Origin: Herbidospora cretacea
Lineage (GTDB): Bacteria; Actinomycetota; Actinomycetes; Streptosporangiales; Streptosporangiaceae
Assembly: GCF_001570605.1 (NCBI RefSeq)
Contig: NZ_BBXG01000006.1
Location: forward strand, 62,001 to 126,000
DNA length: 64,000 nucleotides
Direction: 5' to 3'
The position numbers and the translations under genes are program-made. Under the pieces are notes generated by a model, which was not told where the DNA came from, did not search any database, and worked only from the letters and a program-made list of their open reading frames with translations. Each line of letters starts with the position of its first letter. Within the stretch, counting starts at the first letter, position 1. This document shows positions 3,441-19,443 of this stretch, one piece after another.

Positions 3441-5144
3441 GTGCGACCTTCCGACCCCTGGGACGACGACGACCCGGCCACCCGGTCCCGCTCCGGGTGG
3501 CCGTACGACGACGACCGCGAACAGGGATGGGGCTTCGGTGATGCGCGCTCGGAGTGGTCCTCAGGCTCGACGTGGTCGGAGATCGACCCGGAGAACGTAC
3601 GTGGGGGTGGCGGGTGGCCGGGTCTCTTCGGCGACGACGGGGATCCTCGTGACCTGAGCGACCCCGCTCCCGGCGGCGATCGGTGGGGCCGATCGCCCGA
3701 CGACGACGGACCGGTGTCCTCTCACCGGTCCACGGGGCGCGCGGGTCGGCCCGCTCGTGAGGATTCGGATCACTCCCTCGGGGAGGCCGATCGGCGTCCC
3801 GGCGGCGGTGATCCGGAGGCTGCTCATCTGTCCGCGCCGCCTGATCATGGCGAACACGCTGTCGGCATTCCTGATGCCGAGGGGTTCTCCACGGGTGACG
3901 GGCGGCGGAGTGGGGGCCGGACCTCTCGTGCCGGTGGTTCTCGCCGTGACGGCCGGGGGAGTGCGGGCAGGGCTTCCGGTGATCAGAGTCGGTGGCGTCG
4001 GGCCCCTCTCTCGGCTGATGCTGATGAGCGGGGGTCGGTAGACCACGCTTCTGAGGGTGATCGGCCTGAATCCTTGAGTCCCCCCTCGACCGCTGATGGC
4101 GGAGGGTGGCCGTCCGGTGAGGCTGGCGAGGAACACGGGCGCATCGGCCGGGATCCTGTCCCGTCCGCTGACGCCGAGCTGGGGTCGGCAGGCTGTGTGC
4201 CCGATGGAGATGAGCTGGGGCAGGCAGGCCGCATGGCCGAGGGGGATGAGCTGGGGCAGGCAGGCCGCATGCCTGATGGGGATGAGCTGGGGCAGGCCCG
4301 CCATGTCTTTGATGGTGATGAATTTGAGCTCCCGGGCGGTGCATCCGATGGTGATGGGCGCGGACGCCTGAGCTCGTCCTCTATTGCTGATGGCGGGGAC
4401 GGTAGGGCCGCTCGTGAGGCACCGAACGATCGGCCGAACCCCCGTGACTGGGGCGGGTTGCCGGACGACGAACCCGCTGGCCGGCGGCGGTCACGGAACG
4501 GTAAGACGGGTCGGCGTGGGTCCCGTCGTGGTGAGCCGGATGGCGATGGTCCCCCCGAGGGGGATGCGCTCTTCGGCGGTGGTGACACCGGTCGTCGGTC
4601 CAAGCGGCGGGGGGCGACGTCCGAGGAGCAGAGTTCCGATCCTGAAGCTCGGGCGCGGGCGATCTGCCTTCGGCTGCTCACTCTCGCTCCCCGGACTCGG
4701 GCACAGCTCTCCGAGGCGCTGCTGAAGCGGGAGATCCCCGAGGAGGTGGCCGAACGGGTTCTCGAACGGTACTCCGAGGTCGGCCTGATCGACGATCAGG
4801 CGTTCGCGGCCGCGTGGGTCAGTTCACGGCACCACGGGCGAGGGCTCGCCCGGTGGGCGCTGGCGCAGGAGTTGCGGCATCGCGGGGTCGAGGAGGAGAC
4901 CGTCAAGGAGGCCGTCGAGCAGCTCGATCCCGATGAGGAGGTCGAGACGGCCCGGCGGCTCGTGGCCCGGAAGCTGAGGTCGACCAGGGGCGCCGATCCG
5001 CTCGTCCGGACGCGGAAGCTGGTGGGCATGCTGGCGCGGAAGGGATATTCGGCCGGGCTGGCCTTCCGCATCGTCAGAGAGGCACTCGAAGCTGAGGGCG
5101 AAGAGACCGACGACGCCGAAGGCGGCTACCTGGACTCTCTGTGA
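3441..5144 (+). CDS. recX: RecX regulatory protein with a long disordered N-terminal extension
   Basis: Residues about 400-560 form a normal RecX domain of three-helix repeats (ARAICLRLLTLAPRTRAQL, EVGLIDDQAFAAAWVSSR, ARKGYSAGLAFRIVREAL). RecX caps RecA filaments and inhibits RecA. The first 400 residues are unusual: a Gly/Asp/Arg/Ser-rich, probably disordered region with a five-fold 12-residue repeat (DGDELGQAGRM type). RecX proteins are usually 150-260 residues, so this one is more than twice as long. GC3 is visibly lower in the extension than in the RecX domain. The GTG start 8 bases after recA has no clear ribosome-binding site, which suggests coupling to recA. A shorter form starting inside the extension cannot be excluded. 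Confidence 0.85.
   Translation: MRPSDPWDDDDPATRSRSGWPYDDDREQGWGFGDARSEWSSGSTWSEIDPENVRGGGGWPGLFGDDGDPRDLSDPAPGGDRWGRSPDDDGPVSSHRSTGRAGRPAREDSDHSLGEADRRPGGGDPEAAHLSAPPDHGEHAVGIPDAEGFSTGDGRRSGGRTSRAGGSRRDGRGSAGRASGDQSRWRRAPLSADADERGSVDHASEGDRPESLSPPSTADGGGWPSGEAGEEHGRIGRDPVPSADAELGSAGCVPDGDELGQAGRMAEGDELGQAGRMPDGDELGQARHVFDGDEFELPGGASDGDGRGRLSSSSIADGGDGRAAREAPNDRPNPRDWGGLPDDEPAGRRRSRNGKTGRRGSRRGEPDGDGPPEGDALFGGGDTGRRSKRRGATSEEQSSDPEARARAICLRLLTLAPRTRAQLSEALLKREIPEEVAERVLERYSEVGLIDDQAFAAAWVSSRHHGRGLARWALAQELRHRGVEEETVKEAVEQLDPDEEVETARRLVARKLRSTRGADPLVRTRKLVGMLARKGYSAGLAFRIVREALEAEGEETDDAEGGYLDSL
4167..4346 (+). repeat. five 36-bp tandem repeats inside recX
   Basis: Five consecutive 36-base units (starting at 4167, 4203, 4239, 4275 and 4311) each encode 12 residues of the pattern x-G-D-E-L-G-Q-A-G-R-M-x. 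Units two to four are near-identical; the outer two are diverged. The length keeps the recX frame. They lie in the low-complexity N-terminal extension and look like a recent slippage or unequal-crossing expansion. Confidence 0.9.
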
Positions 5145-7303: not shown

Positions 7304-8099
7304 CCGCTCACCTCGATCTCAGGCATCCCCAATGACCGGGACGAGCCACTGTCGGCGGACTGGAAACGCTGCGACCTGAGACCTGTGGCTCAATGAGGAC
7401 TGGTCATAGCCACTGATCCGATGCTGCGGCCCGAGGGCCTGGTAAGCAGCCGGTGGCCTGTGGCTAGCGAGGATCGGTCGGGACGAATGTTCCGATGTCG
7501 AGGCGCGATGGTGCTTGGCTCCTGCGGCTCGGCTGGGTTTTGCCGGGATGACCGATCCGATGCCGAGGCGCGAGATGCCCGGAACTGTACCTGAATGCAG
7601 GCTTGCCGGGGCGGCCTGTCCGGTCAGCCGTGCTTGTTGGCTCCTGCGCTCGACCTGGTGGAAACCGTGTCTTCTGCGCATGAAAACTGGTCCGCTGCCA
7701 GGGAGCCGATGAGAGCGTCGCCCGGCCTCCGGCTTCGACGTATCGAGTCACCACCCCCGTGACGATCGCAATCTGACACAAGGCCCGTGAAGCGAGTGGG
7801 GAACGGTTCCGAGGCATCGCGGGGAAGGTCGATGTCGCGTAGCCCGGCAGCTTCCGCAGCCGCACCAGAGCTCGTGGGAAGAAGAAGCGGCCGCCTCGGC
7901 AGCGCCCGGGGCGGATCTGGCTGAGCACCATGGCGACCAGGCGTTCAACCACCAGCAAGCCACTGGGCGCGCTGTCCGTGGACACGGAGACTACGTGACG
8001 AAGCCTCGCCAAGCACCGCAAGACTACGAAGACCACATGATTCGCCCGTGGTGCCGTCCGGCGCACGATGAGCGGGTTGTCACGACTCCAAGGAGCATG
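7304..8099. other. gene-poor region with degenerate direct repeats
   Basis: About 790 bases without a gene that can be supported. Between 7382 and 7580 a motif beginning CCTGTGGCT and ending near TCCGATG recurs with an exact 75-base offset, and a third half-copy follows at about 7555. The part from about 7750 to 8040 is open in one minus-strand frame but has weak codon bias; it may be the remains of an old mobile element or gene. No terminal inverted repeats were found. Confidence 0.5.
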
Positions 8100-8891
8100 A
8101 TGTCCCGCTTACTGAAGTCCCTTGTCGCCGCCTTCCTGCTGGCCGGCCTGACCTTCTCCGTCCCGGCCCAGGCGGTGAGCACGCCCAAGCCCAAACCGAC
8201 CATCGTGCTGGTCCACGGCGCCTTCGCCGACTCCAGCGGGTGGAACACCGTCGCCGGTCAGCTGATCCGCAAGGGCTACACCGTCACCGCGTTCTCCAAC
8301 CCGCTGCGGGGGCCGCTGGCCGACGCGGAGTACCTGCGGCTGTTCCTGTCCACCATCACGGGGCCGGTCGTCCTGGTCGGCCACTCCTACGGCGGGGCGG
8401 TCATCTCCAACGCCGCCACGGGGAACGCCAACGTCAAGTCCCTGGTGTACGTCGCCGCCTACGCGCTCGACGAGGGCGAGAGCGTGAGCGACGCCAACCA
8501 CCTGGCCGGCGGCGAGACCGAGGTCACCAGCCACCTGAAGACCGCGCCGTTCCCGGGCGCTCAGGGCCAGGACGCGGACGCGTACATCGACCCGGCGCAC
8601 TTCCACCGGCTGTTCGCCCAGGACCTGCCCCGCAGCGTGACCTCGGTGATGGCCGCGACGCAGCGGCCGGGGGCGCTGGCCGCGCTGGTGTCCGCTTCGG
8701 GGCCGGCGGCGTGGAAGACGATCCCGAGCTACTTCGTGGTCGCCAAGCAGGACAACATCATCCCGACGGTGGCCGAGCGGGCGATGGCCAAGCGCGCCAA
8801 GGGCGTCATCGTCGAGATCGACAGCTCGCACGTGCCGATGATGAGCCACCCCGACGTGGTGACCTCGCTCATCGTGCGCGCGGCTCGCTGA
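8100..8891 (+). CDS. secreted alpha/beta hydrolase
   Basis: This 263-residue exported esterase-like protein has a Sec signal peptide (SRLLKSLVAAFLLAGLTFS, probable cleavage after PAQA). The mature part starts with the strand TIVLVHGAFADSS (oxyanion region), then the nucleophile elbow GHSYGG near residue 95, an acid in AKQDN near 215 and the His of SSHVP near 243. The group includes salicylate-esterase-like hydrolases. Two adjacent ATGs occur, at 8097 and 8100; AGGAG at 8091 suits the second better. An upstream extension to 7995 is open but lacks signal-peptide logic. A strong terminator follows. Confidence 0.87.
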   Translation: MSRLLKSLVAAFLLAGLTFSVPAQAVSTPKPKPTIVLVHGAFADSSGWNTVAGQLIRKGYTVTAFSNPLRGPLADAEYLRLFLSTITGPVVLVGHSYGGAVISNAATGNANVKSLVYVAAYALDEGESVSDANHLAGGETEVTSHLKTAPFPGAQGQDADAYIDPAHFHRLFAQDLPRSVTSVMAATQRPGALAALVSASGPAAWKTIPSYFVVAKQDNIIPTVAERAMAKRAKGVIVEIDSSHVPMMSHPDVVTSLIVRAAR

Positions 8892-8904: not shown

Positions 8905-8929
8905 AAGGCCCGCCTGCCAGGCGGGCCTT
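8905..8929 (+). terminator. hairpin terminator after the hydrolase
   Basis: An 11-bp perfect stem, AAGGCCCGCCT pairing with AGGCGGGCCTT around a GCC loop, begins 13 bases after the hydrolase stop and is followed by TTCC. It insulates the hydrolase from the cqsA-like gene. Confidence 0.8.
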
Positions 8930-9002
8930 TCCGCGGTTCCGGGGTGATCTTGACGTGGCCGGGGTGGCATCTTTCGTCCGGCGCGTTGTATCACTCTGAG
9001 TT

Positions 9003-10148
9003 ATGAAAACGTCACCCCAGCCCGCCACCGCTCGTGTCCGGGCCCGGGTCGAGCGGTTCCATCGCCACCGGGTCGCCGGGGAGTGGTCCGGCCGCGAACT
9101 GCTCTCCGGGCGGTCACCCCAACCCGGCGACGTCCGGGTCGACAGCAACGACTACCTCGCCCTCGCCGGTGACGAACGGGTCGCCAAGCGGATGGCCGAC
9201 TGCCTGCTCGGCGGGCAGGACCAGGTCGTACCGGAAGAGGATCTGACCTCGCACCTGCGGGCCCGCGCCGGGGTGCTGTGCCAGTCCGGGTGGGACGCCA
9301 ACCTCGGCCTGCTGCAGGCGATCGCCGACGAGCACACACCCGTGTACGTCGACCAGCTCGCCCACATGTCCCTCGCGGCCGGCGCGAAACTGGCGCGCGC
9401 GCCGCTGCGGCCGTTCCGGCACAACGACCTCGGGCACCTGCGGCGGCGGATCGAGCGCCACGGCCCCGGCGTGGTCGCCGTCGACGCGCTCTACAGCACG
9501 AACGGGAGCCTGTGCCCGCTGGCCGAGATGTGCGACCTGGTCGAGGAGACCGGCTGCGTGCTCGTGGTCGACGAGTCGCACTCCCTCGGCACGTCCGGCC
9601 CGCTGGGCGCCGGTCTGGTGGTGGAGCTGGGCCTGACCGGGCGCGTGCACTTCCGGATCGCCAGCCTCTCCAAGGCGTTCGCCGGGCGGGCCGGGTTCGT
9701 CGCGGCCCAGGACCCGGCGTTCGTGCCCTACTTCCGGCTGGAGTCCTTCCCGGCGGTGTTCTCCTCGCGGCTGCTGCCCCACGACCTGGCGGGGCTGGCG
9801 GCGACCTTGGAGGCGGTGCGGACCGACGAGTGGCGGCGCGACCGGCTGCGCGAGGTGTCGGCGTGGGTGCGCGAGGAGGTCGCCGAGCTGGGGTTCGACC
9901 TGGAGGGTTCGGCGAGCCAGATCGTCGCGCTCCAGACGGGGACCGAACGGCACACCATCGATGTCCGGGAGTCGCTGGAGGAGCACGGCGTGTTCGGCTC
10001 GGTCTTCGCGCCGCCCGCGACGGCCCGCAACCGGTCGCTCATCCGGCTGTCGCTGCACTGCGGGCTGGGCGACGACGACGTGACGCGGATCGTCGAGGCC
10101 TGCCGGGACGTGCGCGACCGGTTCGGGGTCGAACCCGCTCGCCCGTGA
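9003..10148 (+). CDS. cqsA: CqsA-type alpha-hydroxyketone quorum-sensing signal synthase
   Basis: A 381-residue PLP enzyme of the alpha-oxoamine synthase fold. It carries the segments that mark CqsA/LqsA rather than BioF or KBL: CQSGWDANLGLLQAI, DQLAHMSLAAGAK, FRHNDLGHLRRRIERHGPG, DALYSTNGSLCPL, DESHSLGTSGPLGAGLV and FSSRLLPHDLAGLAATLE. The PLP lysine is K224 in SLSKAFAGRAG; D190 and H193 lie in VVDESHS. CqsA joins an acyl-CoA to an aminobutyrate or SAM-derived unit to give CAI-1-like alpha-hydroxyketone signals. A bioF role is less likely because the CqsA-specific blocks are so complete and no biotin genes are nearby. No ribosome-binding site is obvious before ATG 9003. A GTGA overlap couples it to a short frame behind it. 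No cqsS-like receptor is adjacent. Confidence 0.85.
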   Translation: MKTSPQPATARVRARVERFHRHRVAGEWSGRELLSGRSPQPGDVRVDSNDYLALAGDERVAKRMADCLLGGQDQVVPEEDLTSHLRARAGVLCQSGWDANLGLLQAIADEHTPVYVDQLAHMSLAAGAKLARAPLRPFRHNDLGHLRRRIERHGPGVVAVDALYSTNGSLCPLAEMCDLVEETGCVLVVDESHSLGTSGPLGAGLVVELGLTGRVHFRIASLSKAFAGRAGFVAAQDPAFVPYFRLESFPAVFSSRLLPHDLAGLAATLEAVRTDEWRRDRLREVSAWVREEVAELGFDLEGSASQIVALQTGTERHTIDVRESLEEHGVFGSVFAPPATARNRSLIRLSLHCGLGDDDVTRIVEACRDVRDRFGVEPARP

Positions 10149-16304: not shown

Positions 16305-16934
16305 ATGACCGATACCTACCGGCGCACCGTCGCCGCCGGCGCGCTGATCGCGTGGCCCGTCCTGCTGTTCGCCGCCTTCCTCACCTCACCGCCCAGCGAG
16401 GAGCACGACCCCGTCCTGTTCGCCTCCATGCCGGGCCAGGTGCAGGTCAGCGGCCTGCTCTTCCTGTACGCCACCCTCGCCATGATCCCGGCGCTGTTCG
16501 GCCTGGCCGCGCCCCTCTATCCGAGGGCCAGGGCGCTGGCCAACACGGGCCTGACCCTGGGCCTGTTCGGCGCGGCCTCGGCGTGCACCCTGTTCATGAC
16601 CGACTTCTACGACCTGGCGCTGGCCCAGACCGTGCCCGCCGAGACGGCCCGGCAGGTCACGGCCGCCGCCGGCGAGCTGCCGGGCTTCGTGTTCGGCATG
16701 CTGCTGCCCGGCTTCCTCACCCACGTGGGCACCCTGGTCCTGGTCGTCGGACTGGCGGTCAAGAGGGCCGCGCCGTGGTGGGTGCCGGTCGCGGTGGTCG
16801 CCGGGATCGTCTGGCCGTTCGTGGTGGCGAGCACCTCGCCCGCCATGCAGTCGATCGGCTCGCTGCTGGAGCTGGCCGCGCTTGCCTGGGTGGCGCGCGC
16901 GGTGATCAGAACCCCGAGTCCCGTGCCCGCGTGA
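16305..16934 (+). CDS. hypothetical multi-pass membrane protein
   Basis: A 209-residue protein with five or six hydrophobic segments (AGALIAWPVLLFAAFLT; VSGLLFLYATLAMIPALFGL; TGLTLGLFGAASACTLFM; LVLVVGLAVK; VPVAVVAGIVWPFVVAS). No family is certain; the layout resembles DUF4386-like membrane proteins. ATG 16305 follows GAGGG closely. The last 29 bases overlap the 3' end of the response-regulator gene on the other strand. It is divergent from the glu-like operon. Function unknown. Confidence 0.7.
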   Translation: MTDTYRRTVAAGALIAWPVLLFAAFLTSPPSEEHDPVLFASMPGQVQVSGLLFLYATLAMIPALFGLAAPLYPRARALANTGLTLGLFGAASACTLFMTDFYDLALAQTVPAETARQVTAAAGELPGFVFGMLLPGFLTHVGTLVLVVGLAVKRAAPWWVPVAVVAGIVWPFVVASTSPAMQSIGSLLELAALAWVARAVIRTPSPVPA

Positions 16935-17541
16935 TCGCCTCGGCCCGGTCGGCGACCTGGAGCTTGGCGAAGATGTTGGACACGTGGTTGCGGACCGTCT
17001 TGCCGCTCAGCCCGAGCCGCTCGGAGATGTGCGGGTTGGTCATGTGAGCGGCCATCAGGGAGAGGATCTCCCGCTCCCGTACGGTCAGCTCGGGGAACCC
17101 CTGCTCCCGCTTGGCCAGGCCGGTGAAGTAGCCGGTCAGCCGGGACGCGATGGCCGGCCCGAAGATCGCCTCACCGCCGTGGACGGCCAGGATCGACCGC
17201 ACCAGCTCGGCCTTCCTGGCCCCCTTCAGCACGTAGCCGAGGGCGCCCGCCCGCAGCGCCGCGAAGACCGAGTCGTCGTCGTCGGCCATGCTCAGCACCA
17301 GCACCCGGATGTGCGGGTGGTCGCGGACCAGCCGTTCGGTCGCGGCCACCCCGCCCATCCCCGGCATCGCCAGGTCCATCAGGACGACGTCGGGCTGCAC
17401 CTGGCCGACGAGGGCCAGGGCCTGCTCACCCGAGGACGCCTCGTCGGCGATCTGGATGCCGGCCACCGGTTTGAGCAGGGCCGTCAGGCCCGCCCGGAAC
17501 GCGGCGTGGTCGTCGACGAGCAGGACGCGGATCTGTTCCAT
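16906..17541 (-). CDS. NarL/LuxR-type response regulator
   Basis: A 211-residue regulator. The receiver domain spans residues 1-120 with acidic pocket DD at 10-11, phospho-acceptor D56 in VLMDLAMPG and a Lys in YVLKGARK. The C-terminal LuxR-type HTH is LTVREREILSLMAAHMTNPH followed by LSGKTVRNHVSNIFAKLQV. The start codon abuts the stop of the histidine kinase gene directly, so the two are coupled and surely cognate. Targets are unknown. Confidence 0.95.
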   Translation of the reverse strand: MEQIRVLLVDDHAAFRAGLTALLKPVAGIQIADEASSGEQALALVGQVQPDVVLMDLAMPGMGGVAATERLVRDHPHIRVLVLSMADDDDSVFAALRAGALGYVLKGARKAELVRSILAVHGGEAIFGPAIASRLTGYFTGLAKREQGFPELTVREREILSLMAAHMTNPHISERLGLSGKTVRNHVSNIFAKLQVADRAEAITRARDSGF

Positions 17542-19443
17542 TCAGGCTCCCATTGGCAACTGCGCGCGAACGGTCGTGCCGCGCGCAGTGATGATCACAA
17601 AGGAGCCGCCCAACTCGGTGGCCCGTTCGCGCATGGACGTCAGGCCGATGCCCGGAGGCCCATCGGCCCCGCAGCCGTCGTCGACGACTTCGACCAGCAG
17701 ATTCTTCCAGGGGACAAGCCGGAGCGTGACGGTCCCGGCGCCGGAGTGGCGGCGGGCGTTGTTCATCGCCTCGACAGCAATATGGTAGGCCGCCACTTCG
17801 GTCGCCGCCGACAGTTCGGGCAGCTCGACGGGCAGATCGAGACCTACGCGCGGCTCTCCCGGCAGTCCCGCCACGTGGGCCCGGAGCGCCCCGAGGAGCC
17901 CGAGGGTGTCGAGCGCGGGCGGCCGCAGCCCCTCGATGAGGGCCCGCACGTCGGCGGTGGCGGCCTGGGCCGCCCCGATCATCTCCTCCAGCAGGGCCCG
18001 CGCCCGTGGGTCGGCGACCAGGTCCTGGACCGCCTCGGCGCGCATCGTCAGCGCGGCCAGCGTCGGCCCGAGCCCGTCGTGCAGGTCTCGCCGCAGCCGT
18101 CTGCGCTCCTCCTCCCGGGCCAGCACCAGCCGCTCCCGGGAGACCCGCAGGTCGGCGGCCAGCCGTTCGGCGTGCACGACCGGCCCCATCTGCCGGGCCA
18201 GATCCTCCAGCAGCCGCAGGTCGCGGGCGCTGAAGCCCTTCTGCCCCGCCCGGGGCGCGAGGGCGAGATGCCCGACGAGCTCGTTCCGGTACGTGAGCGG
18301 CAGGCGCACCAGCCCCGGGTCCCCGGCCACCCCGAGAGGCTCCACCGCCGCGTGGGGGAGCTTCAGCGCCTCGGCCACCGACTCGGCCGCCGCCTGGGCG
18401 CCGGGCCGGACCTCCAGGCTGCGGCCCAGGTGGGCGATGGCGGCGTAGGGGTCGTCGCGGCGGCCGTACATGAGCACGTTGACGGCGCGCTGCACCCGCG
18501 CCCGGAGCGGCGCGAAGACGAGGGCGACCACCCCGGCGGCGGTCACCGCCAGCGGGAGCCCCTGACTCTGGAAGACCGCGCCCAGATAGGCGACGACGGC
18601 GACGTATCCGCCGGTCACGAAGGCGGTGAGGACGGCGTAGACGAGCGTGCGGTTGATGACCAGCTCGATGTCGAACAGGCCGTGCCGCACGATCGCGATG
18701 CCGATGGCGGCCATCACGAAGGTGATCGCGGCTGTTCCGGCGATCTCCCAGAAGCCGCTGTCGATCGGCCAGATGGCGTCCGGGATGTCGTCGTTCAGGC
18801 CCGCGAACAAGCGGAGCACGATCATCAGGCCGGCGATCGTGACGGCGTAGACGAGCCACTGGACCTGGGCCCGCTCGATCCGCCGCGCCCTCCTGACCAG
18901 GTCGGCGGCGCCGACGAGGAAGATCAGCCCCGCGACCACGGTGATCGCGGGCTCGGTGAACCTCGCGACACCGGCCAGGGCCTCGATCCCGAAGGGGTTG
19001 CGCATCGCGGTGCCGTAGCCGAGCTGCTGGTTGGTCCCCGGCGCGAACGCGCAGGGGAGCGCGGCGAGCGCCACGAGGGCGACCGTGATCCTCGGGGCGG
19101 GGAGCGGCCGGTCGGGGAAGCAGAAGGGGATCGCGGCCATCGCCAGGTTGGCGGGCACCCACAGGAAGGTCTGCGGCCAGGCCAGCAGCGACAGCTCCGG
19201 CCGCCAGAGCGCGAGCTGCCCGCAGAAGTCGAGGGCGGTGAACGAGAGCCCGGCGGTCAGCAGGAGCGTTCCCACGGCGTTGCGGGGCCGGTTCGCCTTG
19301 ATGATCGCGCCGATCAGCACGCACGCCGCCGCGTAGACCAGATGACTGAGCGCGACCACGCCGAGCCCGTTGACCAGCCCGAGGACGAGCGCCACGGCCG
19401 CCGCCGCGAGCCCGCTCACCCCGACGGCCCATCTCGTTGTCAT
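17542..19443 (-). CDS. membrane sensor histidine kinase (HisKA_3 / DesK class)
   Basis: A 633-residue kinase. The first about 330 residues contain eight to ten hydrophobic segments in place of a classic periplasmic sensor. A GAF-like linker around 340-420 includes [16 protein letters not shown], a short coiled coil follows, then the HisKA_3 dimerisation motif [19 protein letters not shown] with phospho-His near 452. The C-terminal HATPase has N-box [12 protein letters not shown] and G-box DDGCGAD with [11 protein letters not shown]. It signals to the adjoining response regulator. The multi-helix input resembles sensors for lipophilic or membrane signals; the ligand is unknown. Confidence 0.92.

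Follow-up and report, generated by a model that had tools for sequence, protein, structure and literature searches.

The alpha-hydroxyketone signals of Vibrio and Legionella are made by CqsA-type synthases, and a gene in the actinomycete genus Herbidospora raises the question of whether such a signal, or some other product, is made there too. The gene lies in a 64,000-nucleotide stretch (the window) of an 8.28 Mb genome, and a preliminary description had read it as a CqsA-type quorum-sensing signal synthase, with either an unknown receptor or a different use of the acyloin product. A review of actinobacterial quorum sensing (PMC4748050) nowhere mentions CqsA, LqsA or hydroxyketone, and a literature search, which most subscription papers lay beyond, gave no match joining Herbidospora, Actinomadura or Nocardia with an autoinducer synthase or hydroxyketone; an apparent CqsA match in the accessible part of PMC12838073 is a formula and not a gene.

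A CqsA-family protein outside BioF and Kbl

The open reading frame (Table 1; GC at codon positions 1, 2 and 3 of 0.76, 0.49 and 0.94) encodes a protein that scores 451.3 bits against the family model NF005526, above its curated cut-off of 428. The BioF, Kbl, ALAS and serine palmitoyltransferase enzymes share with it the common fold type I PLP family (PF00155), but it falls far under their cut-offs, with 197.6 bits on BioF (TIGR00858, cut-off 426), 166.1 on the Kbl model PRK06939 (cut-off 460), 129 on TIGR01822 (cut-off 493) and 127.1 on ALAS; for ALAS and serine palmitoyltransferase the comparison is by profile score only. The best BioF of the same genome is a different gene (381 bits, itself below the BioF cut-off). 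Among known structures the top PDB matches are those of Vibrio cholerae CqsA (312–313 bits), with serine palmitoyltransferase as the next family at 118 bits.

The sequence blocks agree with the scores. The preliminary description had listed CqsA/LqsA hallmark segments beyond the generic BioF fold, and all are present, as QSGWDAN, AHMSL, FRHN, RHGPG, YSTNG and FSSRLLP. This set is not generic, since the aligned places differ in Escherichia coli BioF (ISGFAAN/SHASL/FAHN/SPCPG/FSMDG/YSTSMPP), in E. coli Kbl (SSCFDAN/NHASI/YANN/EAREA/FSMDG/FSNSLAP) and in the genome's own BioF (SSGYLAN/NHASI/TPHG/TRTEE/FSVDG/FDTGLAP), the single actinobacterial BioF in this block comparison. For AHMSL and FRHN the specificity to the CqsA type is only partial. 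A quick maximum-likelihood analysis of 102 rows, with the loop columns taken out, separates 97 CqsA-type rows including Vibrio CqsA from five BioF/Kbl rows (BioF and Kbl of E. coli, two BioF-domain proteins and the best BioF of the genome itself) with an SH-aLRT value of 100, and the window protein lies inside neither BioF nor Kbl. Two rows had been left out beforehand, one cut by a contig end (L023) and one identical to another (L018, identical to L061). An earlier tree of 73 rows agrees, and both carry a warning of long outgroup branches. Profile scores, structure matches, blocks and tree thus bear out the assignment to the CqsA type.

Table 1. Features of the CqsA-type locus, in window coordinates
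Feature	Position	Strand	Basis or remark
Alpha/beta hydrolase gene, upstream neighbour	7995..8891	+	No link: no tblastn match beside cqsA in H. yilanensis (L014); present in G006, which has no cqsA
Terminator-like hairpin after the hydrolase gene	8905..8930	+	Read by eye, no tool score
Upstream element TCTTGAC...TTGTATCACTCTGAGTT (also as TCTTGAC...TTGTATCACTCTG), putative promoter	8948..9002	+	Largely conserved in 6/6 Herbidospora orthologues; promoter role inferred
CqsA-type (NF005526) PLP-fold protein, 381 aa, ATG start	9003..10148	+	Open reading frame, profile scores, PDB matches, tree, block comparison
Start region	9003..9012	+	Leader of ~40 nt gone, ATG directly behind the upstream element
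Glu32 (CqsA His30 position) to Leu34 (Val32 position), acyl pocket	9096..9104	+	Alignment
Site of lost loop, covering the CqsA Phe79 position	9207..9221, near 9214	+	39 nt missing relative to H. yilanensis L014; V. cholerae CqsA has 14 more residues in this segment
His121 (AHMSL)	9363..9365	+	Alignment
DESH, Asp190 to His193	9570..9581	+	Alignment
Lys224, equivalent of PLP-binding CqsA Lys236, retained	9672..9674	+	Alignment; Lys236 from the accessible part of PMC3376566
LuxR-type response regulator and HisKA_3 kinase	16909-17541, 17545-19443 (~7 kb from cqsA)	-	No evidence of a tie

Repeated loss of the acyl loop

With Vibrio CqsA, Legionella LqsA and Janthinobacterium JqsA the window protein shares the sequence family, the hallmark blocks and the PLP lysine (the sequence comparison being with CqsA), but it lacks the acyl loop that carries Phe79, and has Glu for His30 and Ala for Cys346. 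The loop segment, counted from before 'ADCLL' to after 'QSGW' and called short at 56 residues or fewer, has 47 residues in the window protein, whereas V. cholerae CqsA and the genome's own BioF have 61; it is of full length in the five BioF/Kbl rows, has 60 residues in a second Herbidospora copy and 57–63 in the other rows called full. Among the six Herbidospora orthologues it measures 60 (H. yilanensis), 52, 49, 49, 49 and 47 residues, so that five of the six are shortened, by 39, 33 or 24 nt relative to H. yilanensis and always in frame, and the largest loss (39 nt, 13 codons) is that of the window copy. Sequence error is ruled out as its source by the in-frame losses of other lengths in four other species.

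Because H. yilanensis, with its full-length segment, pairs in the tree with the 52-residue row (SH-aLRT 98–99), the loop has either been lost several times within the genus or been lost once with subsequent recombination. Across the tree a short loop occurs in 26 of the 102 rows and requires at least six changes: it is found in 5/6 Herbidospora rows, 18/39 Nocardia rows, 2/2 rows of group g4 and 1/39 rows of group g315, and in none of the remaining 16 (five proteobacterial, three of the second Herbidospora copy, three of a subbranch linked to acyl carrier protein or EF-hand genes, and the five BioF/Kbl rows).

AlphaFold2 models of the window protein and of the H. yilanensis orthologue, made with 14 related rows each, reached a mean pLDDT of 47 and 54, too poor to show the pocket. 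The segment lost from the window protein presumably aligns with the one that holds Thr83 in ALAS. In that enzyme Thr83 positions succinyl-CoA, according to the accessible part of PMC4525017; the substrates of CqsA are given as SAM and fatty acyl-CoA in the portion seen of PMC10491745. The acyl-chain pocket of CqsA is believed to be lined by H30, V32, F79, F257, I263, F264, C346, P348 and A349 (PMC3285556, in its accessible part), and at these places the window protein reads E, L, deleted, L, V, F, A, P and A. Five of the positions (H30, F79, I263, F264 and C346) are kept in 5/5 proteobacterial rows. Since H30 and C346 vary in most actinobacterial groups, including rows with a full loop (the second Herbidospora copy, for instance, has Arg and Val), our argument depends mainly on the loop. 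In one row with a partly shortened loop, L010, a Tyr is still aligned with F79.

An intact cofactor site and a possible change of chemistry

Against the loss of the loop stands a cofactor site that is kept: the PLP lysine, the aspartate and both histidines are present in all six Herbidospora orthologues, the window copy included. We take His121 to occupy the position of the PLP-ring histidine of the alpha-oxoamine-synthase fold, and the DESH motif to be part of the PLP site.

These observations lead us to favour, tentatively and with confidence a little short of even, the reading that the window protein is a derived CqsA-family PLP protein that makes no CAI-1-type fatty ketone and performs other PLP chemistry. 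As a derived member of the family with the alpha-oxoamine-synthase fold, it would still bind PLP and would probably form an external aldimine with an amino acid or SAM, and condensation with a free medium-chain fatty acyl-CoA would have been lost; the acyl donor may be short, polar or protein-bound, or the protein may carry out a PLP half-reaction only. It would then be neither an autoinducer synthase of the CAI-1 or LAI-1 type nor half of a CqsA/CqsS circuit. We count against this reading that other parts of the protein could make up for a shorter loop, and that the highest dN/dS of the locus and a lost leader, described below, also fit decay.

Loss of catalytic residues in constrained relatives

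The Herbidospora and Nocardia rows form one clade (SH-aLRT 98–99), which holds the window gene together with proteins that have lost the PLP lysine itself. Among the 39 Nocardia rows the lysine is replaced by Thr in five (L016, L017, L024, L059 and L062) and by Gly in two (L068 and L069), and in one of 39 g315 rows (L134) by Arg, giving eight lysine-less relatives through three changes on the tree; the AHMSL histidine is Asn in 6/39 Nocardia rows, through two changes. The lysine-less Nocardia proteins keep their loop length, whereas the window copy keeps Lys224.

These genes are under constraint. Pairwise dN/dS (Nei–Gojobori) is 0.11–0.19 in six pairs of lysine-less Nocardia rows, 0.10 and 0.17 in two pairs of His-less rows, and 0.20 for L076 and L079, one of which has lost the histidine, values too low for the lysine-less and His-less Nocardia genes to be ordinary pseudogenes. 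L134, paired with L138, is more weakly constrained (0.48); purifying selection is found in tested pairs that cover seven of the eight lysine-less relatives.

Such relatives suggest that the window protein, too, might be a pseudoenzyme or regulator, its fold retained in order to bind PLP, an acyl compound or a partner protein and its catalysis no longer under selection. The seven lysine-less and six His-less Nocardia rows of the same clade and their low dN/dS speak for this, as does the position of the five Thr-for-Lys genes between response-regulator and histidine-kinase genes in 5/5 genomes, although these shared neighbours weigh little, the five Nocardia genomes being closely related. The window copy itself, however, keeps Lys, Asp and both His and has no regulator or kinase neighbour, and the sole lysine-less row outside Nocardia belongs to the less constrained pair, so that we consider this explanation unlikely for the window gene.

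A wider version concerns the branch as a whole, which would consist of former autoinducer synthases turned to non-synthesising roles, for example as sensors or regulators that bind PLP or the acyl signal of others: the acyl loop would have been lost repeatedly and the PLP lysine in two Nocardia lineages, with the rest held under purifying selection, and the window copy would stand halfway, without acyl binding but with its cofactor site kept. This idea, too, we think improbable, if worth stating. Should the loop loss reflect a new function, related species within the branch would together document the passage from a synthase to a different kind of protein, some members having the full loop, others lacking it and others again lacking the lysine.

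The same relatives bear on annotation. One Thr-for-Lys protein, L016, scores 471.5 bits on NF005526, above the cut-off and above the window protein, so the model does not test for activity; because a cut-off named for an 'alpha-hydroxyketone-type quorum-sensing autoinducer synthase' passes a protein without the catalytic lysine, actinomycete genomes may be annotated with a signalling system that they perhaps do not possess. Of the initial label, 'CqsA-type' therefore stands, and 'signal synthase' is weakened both by this and by the deletion of the Phe79 loop.

Several features of these Nocardia loci are recorded here in their own right. Genes of one type, marked by a SLATAF motif (L016, L017, L024, L147 and L148; dN/dS 0.12–0.19), lie between genes for an OmpR-type regulator and a HAMP histidine kinase in 5/5 genomes and are flanked by further kinase- and regulator-like frames, recognised by similarity or by eye only. 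In L149 and L150, the same genes as L068 and L069, the change of Lys to Gly is accompanied by DE(S/T)R in place of DESH (dN/dS 0.11), and by eye their neighbours resemble housekeeping genes.

Neighbours and the receptor search

In known systems the synthase and sensor genes are linked, according to the accessible parts of PMC3566124 and PMC3376566. The preliminary description had remarked that no cqsS or lqsS receptor adjoins the window gene; this is borne out, no sensor gene being found among the neighbours, and extends to the genome. A profile of the six-helix sensor, built from only three kinases (two Vibrio CqsS and one from Cupriavidus), recovered 3/3 positive controls, namely two of the three source records and an independent Tistrella plasmid kinase (E 4e-32), but matched none of seven Herbidospora genomes at E ≤ 0.1; in Nocardia it gave only weak matches (E 0.004–0.07), in two of eight genomes. 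The window gene thus differs from the CqsA/CqsS, Lqs and Jqs circuits in having neither an adjacent nor a genomic match to a CqsS/LqsS-type sensor, and the linked cognate sensor with six transmembrane helices that marks those circuits was not found. The protein has the scaffold of a CqsA synthase, but because no such sensor was matched and the acyl pocket departs from the known pattern, we do not file the gene as an alpha-hydroxyketone synthase or as part of a quorum-sensing system. In Tistrella (L031 and L037, NC_017958.1) a cqsA-type gene has no neighbouring sensor, and a CqsS-type sensor lies ~35 kb away on the same plasmid.

The kinase and LuxR-type regulator of Table 1 were considered as a receptor and set aside. 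The kinase is present in 7/7 Herbidospora congeners, including G006, which has no cqsA, and the pair's own genome has no CqsS sensor match. Since the kinase hardly occurs outside the genus (1/30 other genomes at E ≤ 1e-100, 8/37 overall), the argument against a tie comes from the single genome G006; the preliminary description had likewise seen nothing to tie the two, a view that G006 supports and that the near-confinement to the genus speaks against.

Gene order around cqsA is stable within the genus: recA, rny, cqsA and an S9 peptidase gene follow one another in the same order in five named Herbidospora species, and the hydrolase gene accompanies them in four of the five. The hydrolase was rejected as an operon partner (Table 1), H. 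yilanensis having only short DNA matches to it and the terminator-like hairpin lying between the two genes. In G006 cqsA is absent between the hydrolase and S9 peptidase genes, where ~0.9 kb of largely unmatched DNA stands in its place (L144, ~4056-4945). Conserved neighbours had been proposed as a check on the gene, and with a crude ORF caller we saw none shared by Herbidospora and Nocardia or by distant Nocardia species.

The suggestion with which we began, that the protein is an active alpha-hydroxyketone synthase whose acyl specificity has changed and whose signal acts through a receptor unrelated to CqsS/LqsS, can now be weighed. It would account for the score above the NF005526 cut-off, the clade shared with proteobacterial CqsA apart from BioF and Kbl, the intact PLP site and a sequence under constraint. 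But the Phe79 loop is deleted, with His30 changed to Glu and Cys346 to Ala; no CqsS-type sensor was matched in any of the seven Herbidospora genomes searched; no neighbour was seen to be conserved across genera; and the model that supplies the score passes a lysine-less protein as well. We regard a working synthase as rather unlikely.

Relaxed constraint and a lost leader

The window copy is under purifying, though relaxed, selection. Its dN/dS against five orthologues is 0.36–0.41, which argues against neutral evolution and is nevertheless the highest of eight local genes, recA and rny having 0.04–0.07, the S9 peptidase 0.13–0.16, the regulator 0.22–0.29, the kinase 0.24–0.30, a binding protein 0.21–0.31 and the hydrolase 0.20–0.30 (four species). 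It also has the longest end branch of the Herbidospora group (0.14–0.16 against 0.02–0.06), part of this length following from its position as sister to the other five. Outside the loop, 50 columns are near-invariant (conserved at 95% or more among 91 other family rows), and the window copy keeps 47 of them; the polarised changes on its lineage (six) are not clearly more numerous than those on the stem of the other five (four). A TTA codon was looked for in the gene, and none is present.

Upstream, the window copy alone has lost a leader of ~40 nt that in the five orthologues contains a Shine–Dalgarno-like AGAGAAAG and the original start; its own start codon lies at the equivalent place. With the leader and AGAGAAAG missing, translation would be leaderless or very short-leadered, and we infer a leaderless transcript or, alternatively, a loss of expression.

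The gene might therefore be decaying in this Herbidospora strain. The highest local dN/dS, the long end branch, the loss of a leader with a ribosome-binding-site-like motif, the largest loop loss and the absence of the gene from one congener would all suit such a course, but the frame is open with dN/dS well under 1, the start codon sits at the equivalent place behind an upstream element kept in 6/6 orthologues, and neither the 47 of 50 columns retained nor the polarised changes (6 versus 4) suggest a breakdown. Decay seems to us distinctly unlikely, and a derived protein with altered PLP chemistry remains the reading that we prefer.

Distribution and related copies

Relatives of the window gene are not rare, and the CqsA-type family is patchy across the phylum and frequent in a few genera. 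In a search of 60 genomes, the gene's own genome and five of six congeners matched at E ≤ 1e-60, and none of 53 others did. By NF005526 at E ≤ 1e-80, matches occur in at least 49 of 341 genomes of the family (six of the genus itself, two of g4 and 41 of g315), at least 26 of the 341 lying over the curated cut-off; in Nocardia the figures are at least 39 of 150 genomes, with at least 22 over the cut-off, and in an even draw of the phylum at least one of 396, namely the window's own. All these counts are lower bounds, because only part of the candidates was scored in some genomes.

In addition to the relatives in Nocardia, g4 and g315, there is a second copy in the genome itself (G000:C2:46572-47708), 51–53% identical to the first and found also in two congeners. 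It belongs to the same NF005526 model but to a separate branch of the tree, and unlike the loop-less window copy it has a full-length loop with Phe at the F79 position, along with Arg and Val at H30 and C346; its PLP lysine is kept and its dN/dS is 0.18. In 3/3 genomes it lies directly downstream of a gene for a 180-aa EF-hand protein. A CqsA-type gene of Nocardia transvalensis, from another branch, likewise stands behind an EF-hand gene (34% identical, E 2.7e-25). We consider the second, EF-hand-linked copy the better candidate for a synthase, though it too is altered. Whether actinomycetes use alpha-hydroxyketones at all becomes testable with the genes described here.

The arrangement with an EF-hand gene directly upstream was seen in L025 (9010-10759, on G000:C2), L026, L027 and L119 (1118-3155), on two branches of the tree. 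Searches by tblastn were made at E ≤ 1 and E ≤ 1e-3; a strict motif scan of 154 sequences found only the N. transvalensis EF-hand gene and missed that of Herbidospora, so that it is not exhaustive. The literature gave no paper that treats EF-hand and CqsA together, most subscription papers lying beyond the search.

Two g315 CqsA-type genes have a gene for an acyl carrier protein beside them, and at one of the two loci a FabF-like synthase and bioA are present too; because of this company CqsA-type proteins may serve biosynthesis as well. EF-hand, acyl carrier protein and regulator or kinase partners are all absent from directly beside the window gene. The loci with acyl carrier protein genes (L140, 7693-11420; L121, 3299-4567; L141, 9142-10620) hint that a carrier-bound acyl group may be used in biosynthesis, and two Nocardia genomes hold open frames of ~1450 residues with a BioF-type domain (L057 and L058).
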